NCBI GenBank assembly: GCA_005779525.1
Contig: SXIZ01000196.1
Coordinates: 1-32,967, forward strand
Length of the DNA stretch: 32,967 nucleotides
Reading direction: 5' to 3'
Origin: Methylococcaceae bacterium
GTDB taxonomy: Bacteria > Pseudomonadota > Gammaproteobacteria > Methylococcales > Methylomonadaceae
Below, one piece after another: positions 13,170 to 19,880 of this stretch. The position numbers and the translations under genes were made by a program. Under the pieces are notes generated by a model, which ran no database searches, was not told where the DNA came from, and saw only the letters and a program-made list of their open reading frames with translations. How positions within the stretch are numbered: the stretch's first letter is position 1; each line of letters begins with the position of its first letter.

Positions 13170-13766
13170 CTAACCAATTTGGGAAATCATCAATAATTTT
13201 TTCAAATCATCTTTTACTTTATATGGATCAAATCCGGGTTCATATTGCATCATTAAATTCCCGAGAGGATCCATTAAAAACAGCATTCCCTCTGGGATCT
13301 CTGCCTTTCTGATGGTCGTTAATTTCTGCTTTAATTCAGGCATTGCTTGAGCGCGCAGCAATCGGCTATCATCTTCCCACCATTTTGCACTTACCGTCTC
13401 GGGTGGCGGATTAAACACCGCTACGAGACGACGAGTGCGCGTTAAATCTTTATTTAACATTAAAACTATCTGCTTAGTTTTATGGATTGCATCTAAACAT
13501 GTCTGATTACAATCATTGCCTGCTATCACATTAAGCAACACCCAATGACCTGCTATTTCCGACATATTATTGCGGGAAAACTGATCTAATCCGGTGAATT
13601 CAATTAAGTCTGTAGGAACTGGGGGCGTAATCAGTTCGCCGTTGTTGGTATGCGTTACCAATGTTTGCGGATGCTCTTTTAGATACCATGCAATTAAAAA
13701 TGGAATGAAAGACATCGCAAAAATAATGAGTATAAGTCTTTGATTTTTAGTTTGTTGCTGATTCAT
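13170..13766 (-). CDS. SCO/thioredoxin-like cytochrome oxidase assembly protein (CNQTC motif)
   Basis: Single N-terminal TM, CxxxC motif in NVIAGNDCNQTCLDAI, oxidase operon context; overlaps surf1. Confidence 0.7.
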   Translation of the reverse strand: MNQQQTKNQRLILIIFAMSFIPFLIAWYLKEHPQTLVTHTNNGELITPPVPTDLIEFTGLDQFSRNNMSEIAGHWVLLNVIAGNDCNQTCLDAIHKTKQIVLMLNKDLTRTRRLVAVFNPPPETVSAKWWEDDSRLLRAQAMPELKQKLTTIRKAEIPEGMLFLMDPLGNLMMQYEPGFDPYKVKDDLKKLLMISQIG

Positions 13767-14481
13767 GTAATTTTTTTCTTATTGACCAAAATGCTAACAC
13801 CGTTAAGGTAAATGCTAAACCAAACCATTGCACCGCATAAGCAATATGTTTTTCCGGCGTAATGAGCACGGGCAGACTCCAACTGCGTAAGTAGCCATTT
13901 TCAGCGTATGGATCCAGTTCTATTTGAAAGCTAAGTACATCAGCATGTAATAACGGCCCCAGTATTTTAGGTTGCACCACCTGGACTACAGCTGGCCATC
14001 CAGATGTTGGTAACTCAGCGCCCGACAACTGCAAACCTACACTGGGAAAACTATTGACCCGTCCAGTCAGACTAACTTGCTTTTGCGTAAACGCAATATC
14101 AGGCAGGATCTTCCGATCCACATTCAGCGGCACCCAGCCTCGATTAATCAATATTACCTTATGGTTAGATAGTTTTAAGGGGGTTAATACCAAGTAACCC
14201 ACTTTGCCATGCATATGCTGATTATCTACTAAAAATTGATGCTCAACATCATATTCTCCGGTCACACTGACAGGTCTAAATTTTAAACTTGCAAGATCAT
14301 CCGGGGTATTGCCATCAATGACTAACGCATCCTGTTGTAATAATTGTTCTTGGGTTTGCAAATATTCGCGTTTTTGTTCCGAACGGGCGAGCTGCCAGAA
14401 ACCTAAGCTGAGTAGTATCCCCATCACTAGTATATAGGCCAAAAGAGGCCACATACCGATTTGTCTTAATTTTAAAATCAT
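13747..14481 (-). CDS. SURF1 family cytochrome oxidase assembly protein
   Basis: Two terminal TMs, LGFWQLARSEQKREYL, VLINRGWVP motif. Confidence 0.9.
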   Translation of the reverse strand: MILKLRQIGMWPLLAYILVMGILLSLGFWQLARSEQKREYLQTQEQLLQQDALVIDGNTPDDLASLKFRPVSVTGEYDVEHQFLVDNQHMHGKVGYLVLTPLKLSNHKVILINRGWVPLNVDRKILPDIAFTQKQVSLTGRVNSFPSVGLQLSGAELPTSGWPAVVQVVQPKILGPLLHADVLSFQIELDPYAENGYLRSWSLPVLITPEKHIAYAVQWFGLAFTLTVLAFWSIRKKLHESATN

Positions 14482-14888: not shown

Positions 14889-15755
14889 CTACATCAAGTA
14901 CACAAAAACAAACAGACCTAACCAGACGACGTCAACGAAATGCCAGTACCATGCTGCCGCTTCGAAAGCAAAATGGTTCTCCGGTTTAAAATGACCTTTG
15001 CTGCTGCGAAACAGCACCACCGTCAAAATAATTGCTCCGACACACACATGAAATCCATGGAAACCGGTCAACATGAAAAAGGTTGAGCCATAAATTCCAG
15101 AACCCAAGGTTAAGCCCATTTCAGTATAGGCTTCGTGGTATTCAAAAGCTTGACAAGCTACGAAAGTAAAACCCAGTGCGACAGTTGCAATCAAACCCTT
15201 AATTAATTGACTACGATTTTTAGCCAATAAACCATGATGCGCCCAAGTACAAGTCACACCACTGGTTAGCAGAATTAAGGTGTTCAAGAAAGGCAATCCC
15301 CAGGCACCCATCGGTTCAAATTCCCCACCGACGTTTCCTGGACCATTAGTTGGCCACTTGGCTTCAAATCCCGGCCATAACATTGCAGTATCCCGACCCG
15401 GACCATCACCTATACCGCCTAACCAAGGCACAGATAAGTTACGGGTATACCAAAGCGTTCCAAAAAATACAGCAAAAAACATGATTTCGGAGAAAATAAA
15501 CCACATCATACCCATGCGATAGGAGATTCCTACCTGCGTACTGTACATGCCGGACTCACTTTCGTGCGCCTGTAAAGTAAACCAGCCTGCTAACATGACG
15601 ATGAAGATGGCTAATCCCAACACCATCATGCTCGAGCCAATAGACGATCCATTTAGATAGTTTGCAAATCCTGCCAGCATCGTCATCAACCCGACGGTAC
15701 CTATCACCGGCCAAGTAGCTTGATGCGGGATATAATAAGCATTATTTGTCGCCAT
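14889..15755 (-). CDS. coxC: Cytochrome c oxidase subunit III
   Basis: FSEIMFFAVFFGTLWYTRN, TGFHGFHVCVGAI, EAAAWYWHFVDVVWLGLFVFVY. Confidence 0.96.
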   Translation of the reverse strand: MATNNAYYIPHQATWPVIGTVGLMTMLAGFANYLNGSSIGSSMMVLGLAIFIVMLAGWFTLQAHESESGMYSTQVGISYRMGMMWFIFSEIMFFAVFFGTLWYTRNLSVPWLGGIGDGPGRDTAMLWPGFEAKWPTNGPGNVGGEFEPMGAWGLPFLNTLILLTSGVTCTWAHHGLLAKNRSQLIKGLIATVALGFTFVACQAFEYHEAYTEMGLTLGSGIYGSTFFMLTGFHGFHVCVGAIILTVVLFRSSKGHFKPENHFAFEAAAWYWHFVDVVWLGLFVFVYLM

Positions 15756-15868
15756 AATTTTCCCCTGTCTATTACTTCTTATTTAATATTAAAAAATTGT
15801 TGTGCCAAAGCGATATTTTTGACTTTGGCAGGTAATTCTGGGTTGATCACCCAGCGCAAAGTTACCGT

Positions 15869-16303
15869 TTATACTTCCTGCGCCTGCAAGGTTATGGTTT
15901 CAAAACACAAACAATGGAGCACGCCAAAATAATTGGCCGCAAATCCCGGGCTTACGCTAGCTAACGTGCGTAATTTAATTTCTTTGCCCGCCAGATTGTG
16001 TAATTGATAACTCACATCATAAATCGCACCTGGATGCACTTCCCAGCGCGACTGCGAAAACGTTACCTGCAGATCACTCGCGGCGCTGACTGCGCTGATA
16101 AAATCCACGTACACATTTCTTTGCTCATCCACCTGATAAGCCAAGGTTTTTTCATCCAACAACTGCGTTATCTTGCCATTGACTCCGCTAATTTGCGTAA
16201 ACACATCATAGAGCGGAATCATTGCCACACTGAAACCCAACATTCCCAGGGCTACCAGCAATAATTTTACTGCCAAGCGCCGATTTTGCTGCTGTGTATT
16301 CAC
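15869..16303 (-). CDS. ctaG: CtaG/Cox11 cytochrome oxidase CuB assembly protein, truncated by an in-frame TAA (homologous frame continues to 15779)
   Basis: FSVAMIPLYDVFTQISGVNGK, FAANYFGVLHCLCF copper motif. GTG start at 16303 overlaps the upstream small ORF stop (GTGA). Confidence 0.85.
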   Translation of the reverse strand: MNTQQQNRRLAVKLLLVALGMLGFSVAMIPLYDVFTQISGVNGKITQLLDEKTLAYQVDEQRNVYVDFISAVSAASDLQVTFSQSRWEVHPGAIYDVSYQLHNLAGKEIKLRTLASVSPGFAANYFGVLHCLCFETITLQAQEV

Positions 16304-16398
16304 CCCGACATGGCCTGATGTACCGCGTAGGCATAAATACAAAAAGCAATCAGAAACAACACAGTAACCGTAATAATATTTTTCTTTTTAGTGTCCAT
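16300..16398 (-). CDS. Small single-TM protein (32 aa) of the cox operon
   Basis: MDTKKKNIITVTVLFLIAFCIYAYAVHQAMSG, not in the ORF track; sits between coxA and ctaG with GTGA overlap to ctaG. Confidence 0.7.
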   Translation of the reverse strand: MDTKKKNIITVTVLFLIAFCIYAYAVHQAMSG

Positions 16399-16474: not shown

Positions 16475-18097
16475 TTAATGATGCTCTGTAGGAATAATGG
16501 TTGGTGGCGTTGTAAAAGAATGGTACGGCGGAGGAGAAGGCAAAGTCCATTCTAAACCATGCTTGGCAGCATCTTCCCAGACTTCATCAGTCACTTTTTC
16601 ACCCGTGCCACCTTTGATCGTATGGATAACAATATACAAAAATAACAACTGGCTAGCACCAAAGATAAATCCACCAATACTAGAAATCATATTCCAATCA
16701 GCAAACTGCACTGCATAATCTGGAATCCTTCTAGGCATACCCGCTAAACCTAAGAAATGTTGCGGGAAGAATAAAATATTTACCGAGATCGCTGACAACC
16801 AAAAATGCAATTTACCAATTTTTTCGTCATACATATGCCCAGTCCATTTTGGCAACCAGTAATACCCTGCCGCCATCAAAATAAATACTGACGCAGGTAC
16901 CAAGGTGTAATGAAAGTGCGCAACAATAAAATAAGTATCATGATATTGAAAATCCAGCGGCGCTACCGACATCATCAAACCCGTCAAGCCACCCATGGTA
17001 AATAACACCACAAATGCAATCGAAAACAACATCGGCGTTTCAAAAGTCATCGCACCTTTCCACATGGTTGCAGTCCAATTGAAGACTTTAACGCCAGTTG
17101 GAATCGCAATTAACATGGTGGCATACATAAAGTACAACTCGCCAGCAATTGGCAAGCCCACGGTAAACATGTGATGCGACCATACGATAAACGATAAGAA
17201 CGCAATCGAAGCCGTTGCATAAACCATGGAGCTGTAGCCAAATAATGGCTTACGCGCAAACACGGGGATAATGGTAGATGCCACACCGAAAGTCGGTAGA
17301 ATCATGACATACACTTCAGGATGACCGAAGAACCAGAAAATATGTTGATATAAAACTGGATCGCCGCCACCTGCCGCATCAAAGAAGCTAGTATCGAAGA
17401 AACGGTCAGTTAATAACATGGTCACCGCACCTGCAAAAACAGGCATGATCGCTACCAATAAAAAGCCCGTAATCAACCAAGTCCACACAAACAACGGCAT
17501 TTTCATTAAGGTCATGCCGGGAGCACGCATATTGAAAATGGTCGAAATGATATTAATGGCGCCCATGATGGAGGAAATACCCAATAAATGCACCGAGAAT
17601 ACTGCAAATGGTAAGGCTTTACCTGTTTGTAATACTAAAGGCGGATATAAGGTCCAACCCGAGGCAGGAGCCCCCCCTTCCATAAACAAGGTACTCGCAA
17701 GTAGTAACACTCCCGCGACTAACAACCAAAAACTCATATTGTTCATGCGCGGCAATGCCATATCTGGCGCACCGATCATGAGAGGAATCATCCAGTTTGC
17801 CAGCCCAACAAAGGCAGGCATAACCGCACCAAACACCATGACCAAAGCATGCATAGTTGTCATAGAGTTAAAAAACTGCGGCTCTACGAATTGCATACCT
17901 GGTTCAAATAATTCGGCACGAATGACCATAGCCATCGCCCCACCAACGAAAAACATAATCAACGCAAACCATAAATAGAGTGTGCCGATATCTTTGTGGT
18001 TGGTGGTAATTATCCACCGTAATAGCCCCTTGGCTGGGCCGTGATCATGATGCTCATGCTCATGATCGTGATCATGTTCAGCAACTACTGTAGACAT
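16475..18097 (-). CDS. coxA: Cytochrome c oxidase subunit I (A1-type, GHPEVY)
   Basis: [37 protein letters not shown]; His-rich N-terminus. Confidence 0.97.
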
Positions 18098-18171: not shown

Positions 18172-19680
18172 CTACTTGCCTGCTTTTGCAGACTTTAAAG
18201 ATTCGACATCAGCAGGCTGAAGCATATCGCCCACCTTATTACCCAAAGCATTACGGGTATAAGTTACTACAGCAGCAAAATCCACTGCATTCAGAGTTTT
18301 ACCAAAAGCGGGCATAGCACCTTTACCATTCAGTACTAATTCGACCTGTTTATCTAACTTGCCTTTAACGACAGCACTTCCTGTGATCGCAGGTGCAAAC
18401 CCCGTCATTCCTGCACCATCGGGTTGATGACAAGAGGAACATTTTTCTTTGTAAACGGCTTCACCTTTGGTATTTAAGTCAGCCAAAGTTAAGGGTTTAC
18501 TGACATCTACTTTAGCGGCGGGTTTTTCTTCGACGGCAGCCGCAACAGGTTCCGCAGTTCCAGACATTAACGCTTTGACAGCTTTAGCTTGAATTGCATC
18601 GCCAACTTTATTTCCTAAACCATTACGCGTGAAGGTAATCACCTGCGCTAATTCTAAAGGATTTAACATCGTACCAAAGGCAGGCATCATGCCTTTACCA
18701 TTCAGGATTAACTTAGTTTGCGCATTAATATCCCCAAGTACTACAGGACTTTTAGTCAACGCAGGGAAAGTACCAGCAATACCCTCACCACCCGCCATAT
18801 GACAAGAGGCGCAGTTTTTCTCATACAGGGCAGCACCAGCAGTGATTAATTCTGCAGGGGCTTGATCATCTAATACGGGGCCTTTCGCTAAATCTGCTTT
18901 AGTTTTATCTACCCAAGCCTGATAATCCGCTGGTTCCATGGCAATGACCACAATCGGCATAAAGCCATGATCTTTACCACATAACTCCGTACATTGACCA
19001 CGATAGGTCCCTGGCTTATCCACAGACGTCCACGCCTCATTGATAAATCCTGGAATAGTATCTTTTTTCCAGCCCAAATCCGGCACCCACCACGAGTGAA
19101 TCACATCTTTCGCAGTAAATAAAAACCGAATTTTAGTTTTAACCGGAACCACTAAAGGCTTATCAACATTAAGTAAGTAATTGGGCACTGAGCGCGGGTC
19201 AACACCTGATCCCACTTGACGAGCTTTGTTACTTGCCGCATCCAAACTACTGAAGAAATGAATACCACTATCTAAATATTCATATTCCCATTTCCATTGC
19301 CAACCAGTAACTCTAATGGACATTTGAGCTTCTTTAACATCATCAAGCTCAATCATCGCTTTAGTTGCAGGAATCGCCATACCAATCAAAATCAAGGTTG
19401 GAATAATCGTCCAGATAATTTCAACGGTGGTATTTTCATGGAACTGTTCAGCCACATGCCCCTTCGACTTCCGATGATGGTAGATCGAATAAAACATGAC
19501 ACTAAACACGCCCAACCCGATAAAAACGCAGATCCACAAAATCAGCATATGTAGATCATAAAGATCATTACTGACTTGCGTGACACCTTGCATTAAATTA
19601 AGGGCATAATCCGCATGCGCAGAACCTAAGCCAAAAGCCATTAAGGTCAGACATGCGAAAAGTTGCTTGATTTTCTTCAC
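18172..19680 (-). CDS. coxB: Cytochrome c oxidase subunit II with two C-terminal cytochrome c domains
   Basis: CuA motif CTELCGKDHGFMP; CASCH and CSSCH heme c motifs; GTG start at 19680 preceded by AGGAGG and followed by a signal-like sequence. Confidence 0.94.
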   Translation of the reverse strand: MKKIKQLFACLTLMAFGLGSAHADYALNLMQGVTQVSNDLYDLHMLILWICVFIGLGVFSVMFYSIYHHRKSKGHVAEQFHENTTVEIIWTIIPTLILIGMAIPATKAMIELDDVKEAQMSIRVTGWQWKWEYEYLDSGIHFFSSLDAASNKARQVGSGVDPRSVPNYLLNVDKPLVVPVKTKIRFLFTAKDVIHSWWVPDLGWKKDTIPGFINEAWTSVDKPGTYRGQCTELCGKDHGFMPIVVIAMEPADYQAWVDKTKADLAKGPVLDDQAPAELITAGAALYEKNCASCHMAGGEGIAGTFPALTKSPVVLGDINAQTKLILNGKGMMPAFGTMLNPLELAQVITFTRNGLGNKVGDAIQAKAVKALMSGTAEPVAAAVEEKPAAKVDVSKPLTLADLNTKGEAVYKEKCSSCHQPDGAGMTGFAPAITGSAVVKGKLDKQVELVLNGKGAMPAFGKTLNAVDFAAVVTYTRNALGNKVGDMLQPADVESLKSAKAGK

Positions 19681-19880
19681 GGAGCAGCCTCCTCGGTTTG
19701 TAGTTAGAAACTCTTGTATGCGTTTATCGTTATGGTAATACAAGCAATCTCTAGGTCGCCGATCCCAATAACTTTAGTATTTTCATAATAACCTTGCAAT
19801 TCTAAACCATACCGCTATTTTAAGCTAGGCTGCATTACGGAATTACATTAGTTTATGTAGTATAAATTTCTGATGCAAAA

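Follow-up and report, generated by a model that had tools for sequence, protein, structure and literature searches.

An in-frame stop codon in the ctaG gene of a Methylococcaceae draft genome, ahead of an intact C-terminal reading frame

Proteins of the CtaG/Cox11 family (PF04442), represented by Cox11 of Sinorhizobium meliloti (1SO9/1SP0), have an N-terminal transmembrane (TM) helix, an Ig-like domain and a CxC motif, and ctaG is placed between coxA and coxC in the cox operon. In yeast Cox11 a third conserved cysteine is reported to be essential (PMC4683207), and the variant Y250*, which has a stop codon within the last β strand, loses its function fully and yields greatly reduced amounts of protein (PMC10706101). 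Draft metagenome assemblies also carry ordinary nonsense or consensus-base variants, in which a single base creates a stop codon and the frame is intact on both sides. The ctaG gene described here, from a Methylococcaceae bacterium, shares the architecture and the gene placement of the family, but differs from it in having a TAA codon ahead of the last two strands, CLCF where the family has CFCF and a threonine at the position of the third conserved cysteine. Its stop resembles Y250* in being a premature one within the C-terminal β strands but sits one strand before it, and the loss is therefore larger. When set against the draft-assembly variants no difference was found, as the ctaG stop is likewise a single-base change within an intact frame, present in one genome only and accompanied by a second instance, in pilM, in the same assembly. 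The ctaG stop is an ordinary one.

The window, that is the whole 32,967-nucleotide stretch of DNA that was analysed, forms contig 180 of a draft assembly (the source genome, G000) that totals 2.87 Mb, is divided into 316 contigs and is 73% complete. It was compared with three congeners, G001–G003, which are 92–100% complete and hold one intact ctaG each. The minus strand of the window carries coxB, coxA, a 32-aa open reading frame (ORF), ctaG, coxC, a SURF1-family gene and a redox-disulfide-type gene, and an 84-aa ORF lies on the plus strand between coxC and the SURF1-family gene. The genes coxB (18172–19743, subunit II with two C-terminal cytochrome c domains), coxA (16475–18097, cytochrome c oxidase subunit I, TIGR02891 at 690.5 bits), coxC (14889–15755, subunit III) and the SURF1-family gene (13747–14481), all on the minus strand, are intact. 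The 32-aa ORF (16300–16398, minus strand; MDTKKKNIITVTVLFLIAFCIYAYAVHQAMSG) encodes a single TM segment and is kept in the three congeners. Its TGA overlaps a GTG at 16303–16301 that, from the sequence, is most likely the start codon of ctaG; the GTG start and the same overlap were found in all three congeners. The small protein showed a weak, sub-threshold match to Coa3_cc (21.8 bits, cut-off 27), and may possibly be a small oxidase assembly protein that is translationally coupled to ctaG.

As interrupted, ctaG runs on the minus strand from the GTG to the in-frame TAA (15869–16303, 144 codons). The TAA is codon 145 (15871–15869), where the congeners have AAG, AAA and AAG, all coding for lysine. 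It is followed in the same frame by the 29 sense codons of the conserved C-terminus, which correspond to the last two β strands (15782–15868; TVTLRWVINPELPAKVKNIALAQQFFNIK, 29 aa), and by a terminal TAA at 15781–15779. The original prediction had placed the stop and its in-frame extension at these positions, and its coordinates, its description and the naming of the gene as ctaG were borne out. The interrupted product matched the CtaG_Cox11 profile (PF04442) with 77.2 bits over positions 1–114, whereas reading through the stop raised the match to 94.7 bits over positions 1–148, the whole domain; this gain indicates that the downstream frame is more than a chance one. Against NCBIfam PRK05089.1 the interrupted form scored 110.5 bits, under the cut-off of 162. 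An indel or frameshift was excluded, since the alignment to the congeners has no gap at the stop site; with lysine codons in that column, a single substitution from AAA is enough, as had been predicted.

The interrupted product would comprise the TM helix and the Ig-like domain as far as the CxC copper motif (HCLCF), with a short strand beyond. Both cysteines of the motif, C131 and C133, are invariant in our alignment (A1). The read-through protein was modelled with AlphaFold2 (mean pLDDT 89.4), and the stop, at residue 145, falls where the penultimate strand (144–153) begins. In this model the interrupted product lacks strands 144–153 and 163–172, and only reading through the stop gives a complete Ig-like β domain. 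The read-through model matched the solved apo-Cox11 structure 1SO9 (E 3.4e-6, TM 0.72 by target length), which was also the sole sequence match for CtaG in the PDB.

We then looked at how widely such a stop occurs among relatives. A search of the family found ctaG in 220 of 237 genomes, and among the matches listed none apart from the source genome had an internal stop; a list of 60 genomes likewise showed an internal ctaG stop in the source genome only. No relative in the CtaG alignment terminates ahead of the C-terminal segment, so that a naturally shorter CtaG in close relatives, which the original prediction had named as one of two observations that would overturn it, was not encountered. 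It had also raised a second ctaG copy, and none was found in the 73% complete source assembly, which holds one ctaG only. A scan of genome contigs with the 144-aa form returned Kangiella-type CtaG proteins at 34–36% and no near relative, and a search of viral contigs for the same locus gave no match.

The C-terminal tail appears, from these comparisons, to be still under constraint and without decay. Ten of its 29 residues differ from G001, the nearest congener, while windows of equal length in the body of the protein differ at 17.0 residues on average. The corresponding values of pN and pS are 0.215 and 0.737 for the tail, a small sample of 29 codons, and 0.394 and 0.745 for the body; synonymous sites are near saturation, and only the contrast between tail and body is therefore informative. 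Against G003 the tail was no more conserved than the body. For the gene as a whole, the ratio of divergence between the source genome and its congeners to that among the congeners was 1.12 for CtaG, 1.17 for SURF1 and 1.11 for FtsX, so that CtaG shows no acceleration in the source genome. At body columns conserved in outgroups the source genome departs at 17 of 41, compared with 14, 12 and 9 for the congeners, which would amount to a slight excess at most. None of the signs of an old pseudogene that we looked for in ctaG (further stops, frameshifts, neutral drift) was found, and a downstream frame that is intact, with a conserved tail, speaks against one, as originally proposed. With decay absent, the stop is either recent or not real.

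A region-wise sample of 796 kb of the source genome (28%) was scanned for single stops with coding-like codons on both sides, at a sensitivity of ~0.53, and 634 kb of the congeners were scanned by the same procedure. Two clear in-gene stops were found in the source genome, that in ctaG and one in pilM (G000:C75:14597). With its stop read through, pilM encodes a protein that matches PilM_2 along the full profile at 458 bits; all three congeners have an intact pilM. The pilM stop is a TAG at the position of a leucine codon in the congeners. No hit resembling an in-gene stop was obtained in the 634 kb of congener sequence, although the difference of two against zero is not significant (at an equal rate, the probability that the congeners would show none is 0.38). 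If random, two cases at ~53% sensitivity imply ~85 unselected substitutions, or ~1e-4 per coding base. Two further candidates were set aside: a possible third in-frame stop, a TGA at L093:8816 on the minus strand (G000:C66), was not counted as it had no Pfam match, and a TAA at L060:2152 has a PAS-domain ORF after it and appears to mark an ordinary junction between genes. ORFs were also compared after filtering by codon usage, which removes antisense shadow ORFs, and no frameshift was found in 115 gene comparisons at ~86 loci. The ABC-transporter domains listed for the source genome were also free of stops; together these two results indicate that the assembly is not generally poor. A literature search on premature stops in metagenome assemblies returned nothing relevant.

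With isolated nonsense bases in two unrelated core genes, a feature of the assembly or of a mixture of strains becomes more likely than a cause specific to ctaG. We therefore consider it somewhat better than an even chance that the TAA is a one-off base, present in the consensus by error or as the allele of a minority strain, in a ctaG that is intact and conserved apart from it. Living cells of the population would then make full-length CtaG, which would insert CuB into the adjacent CoxA as usual, and the TAA base would not be representative of that population. More generally, where a lone in-frame stop precedes an intact tail in a single draft metagenome assembly, the reads should be consulted before readthrough or truncation is claimed.

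The strongest alternative, which we hold tentatively and at distinctly less than even probability, is that the sampled population has lost CtaG through a genuine nonsense mutation of very recent date. The product without its last two strands would misfold, the aa3 oxidase would lack CuB and other oxidases would carry respiration. The loss of the strands, taken with yeast Y250* (PMC10706101), does predict loss of function, and a real knockout could survive, since genes for a bd oxidase (C118) and for another haem-copper oxidase (C83) are present in the source genome as well. The third cysteine, missing in three of the four members of the genus, may in addition mean that the demand on CtaG is relaxed. 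Against a recent knockout, decay does not extend past the single base; intact copies of coxA, coxB, coxC and SURF1 are present, with CoxA 95–97% identical to that of two congeners; and pilM would need to have been freshly broken as well. If the stop were confirmed, the genus would offer a natural case of an aa3 oxidase with near-identical CoxA coping with a damaged CtaG.

The third conserved cysteine of CtaG lies in the motif PLYDxFC, which in the source genome reads PLYDVFT (region 16199–16210, minus strand). The column, equated from the alignment, holds threonine in G000, G001 and G002 and cysteine in G003 and the aligned outgroups. Judged on the alignment, the absence of this cysteine from three of four genus members would be more unusual than the stop itself. 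CtaG is also divergent overall within the genus, at 43–55% between species compared with 90–97% for CoxA. A wider reading, under which the genus would have weakened its demand on CtaG, with the third cysteine gone in three of four species, the gene now being lost outright in one and CuB inserted by another factor, seems to us quite improbable.

Translation through the stop, by UAA readthrough or a suppressor tRNA that would give full-length CtaG, is in our view very improbable. The downstream frame is indeed intact and conserved, as readthrough would predict, but the stop codon itself is not: all congeners have lysine there and no other listed genome has a stop, and its occurrence in one genome only gives no sign of selection on it. 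Across the sampled part of the source genome TAA terminates 208 of 336 long ORFs, more than any other stop codon, and is thus a normal terminator showing no mark of reassignment; pilM, the other interrupted gene, has UAG rather than UAA. No stop-decoding tRNA was present among the six recovered (with Met, Ala, Gln and three Leu anticodons), a weak test as most tRNA genes are absent or were missed. A short CtaG of 144 aa that is functional, which the original prediction had listed, like readthrough, among its four options, is less probable still. The TM helix and CxC copper motif do precede the stop, but the Ig-like domain is left without its last two strands; in yeast Cox11 a truncation within the last strand already costs the protein its function and most of its amount (PMC10706101), and no relative terminates there.

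The source genome contains genes for particulate methane monooxygenase subunit B and a formaldehyde-activating enzyme, which suggests that the organism is a methanotroph. The sole pmoB-type monooxygenase gene of the assembly (G000:C86:2806-3948) scored 523 bits, close to the 526 of the second copy in G002, whereas the congeners' main copies reach 621–627.
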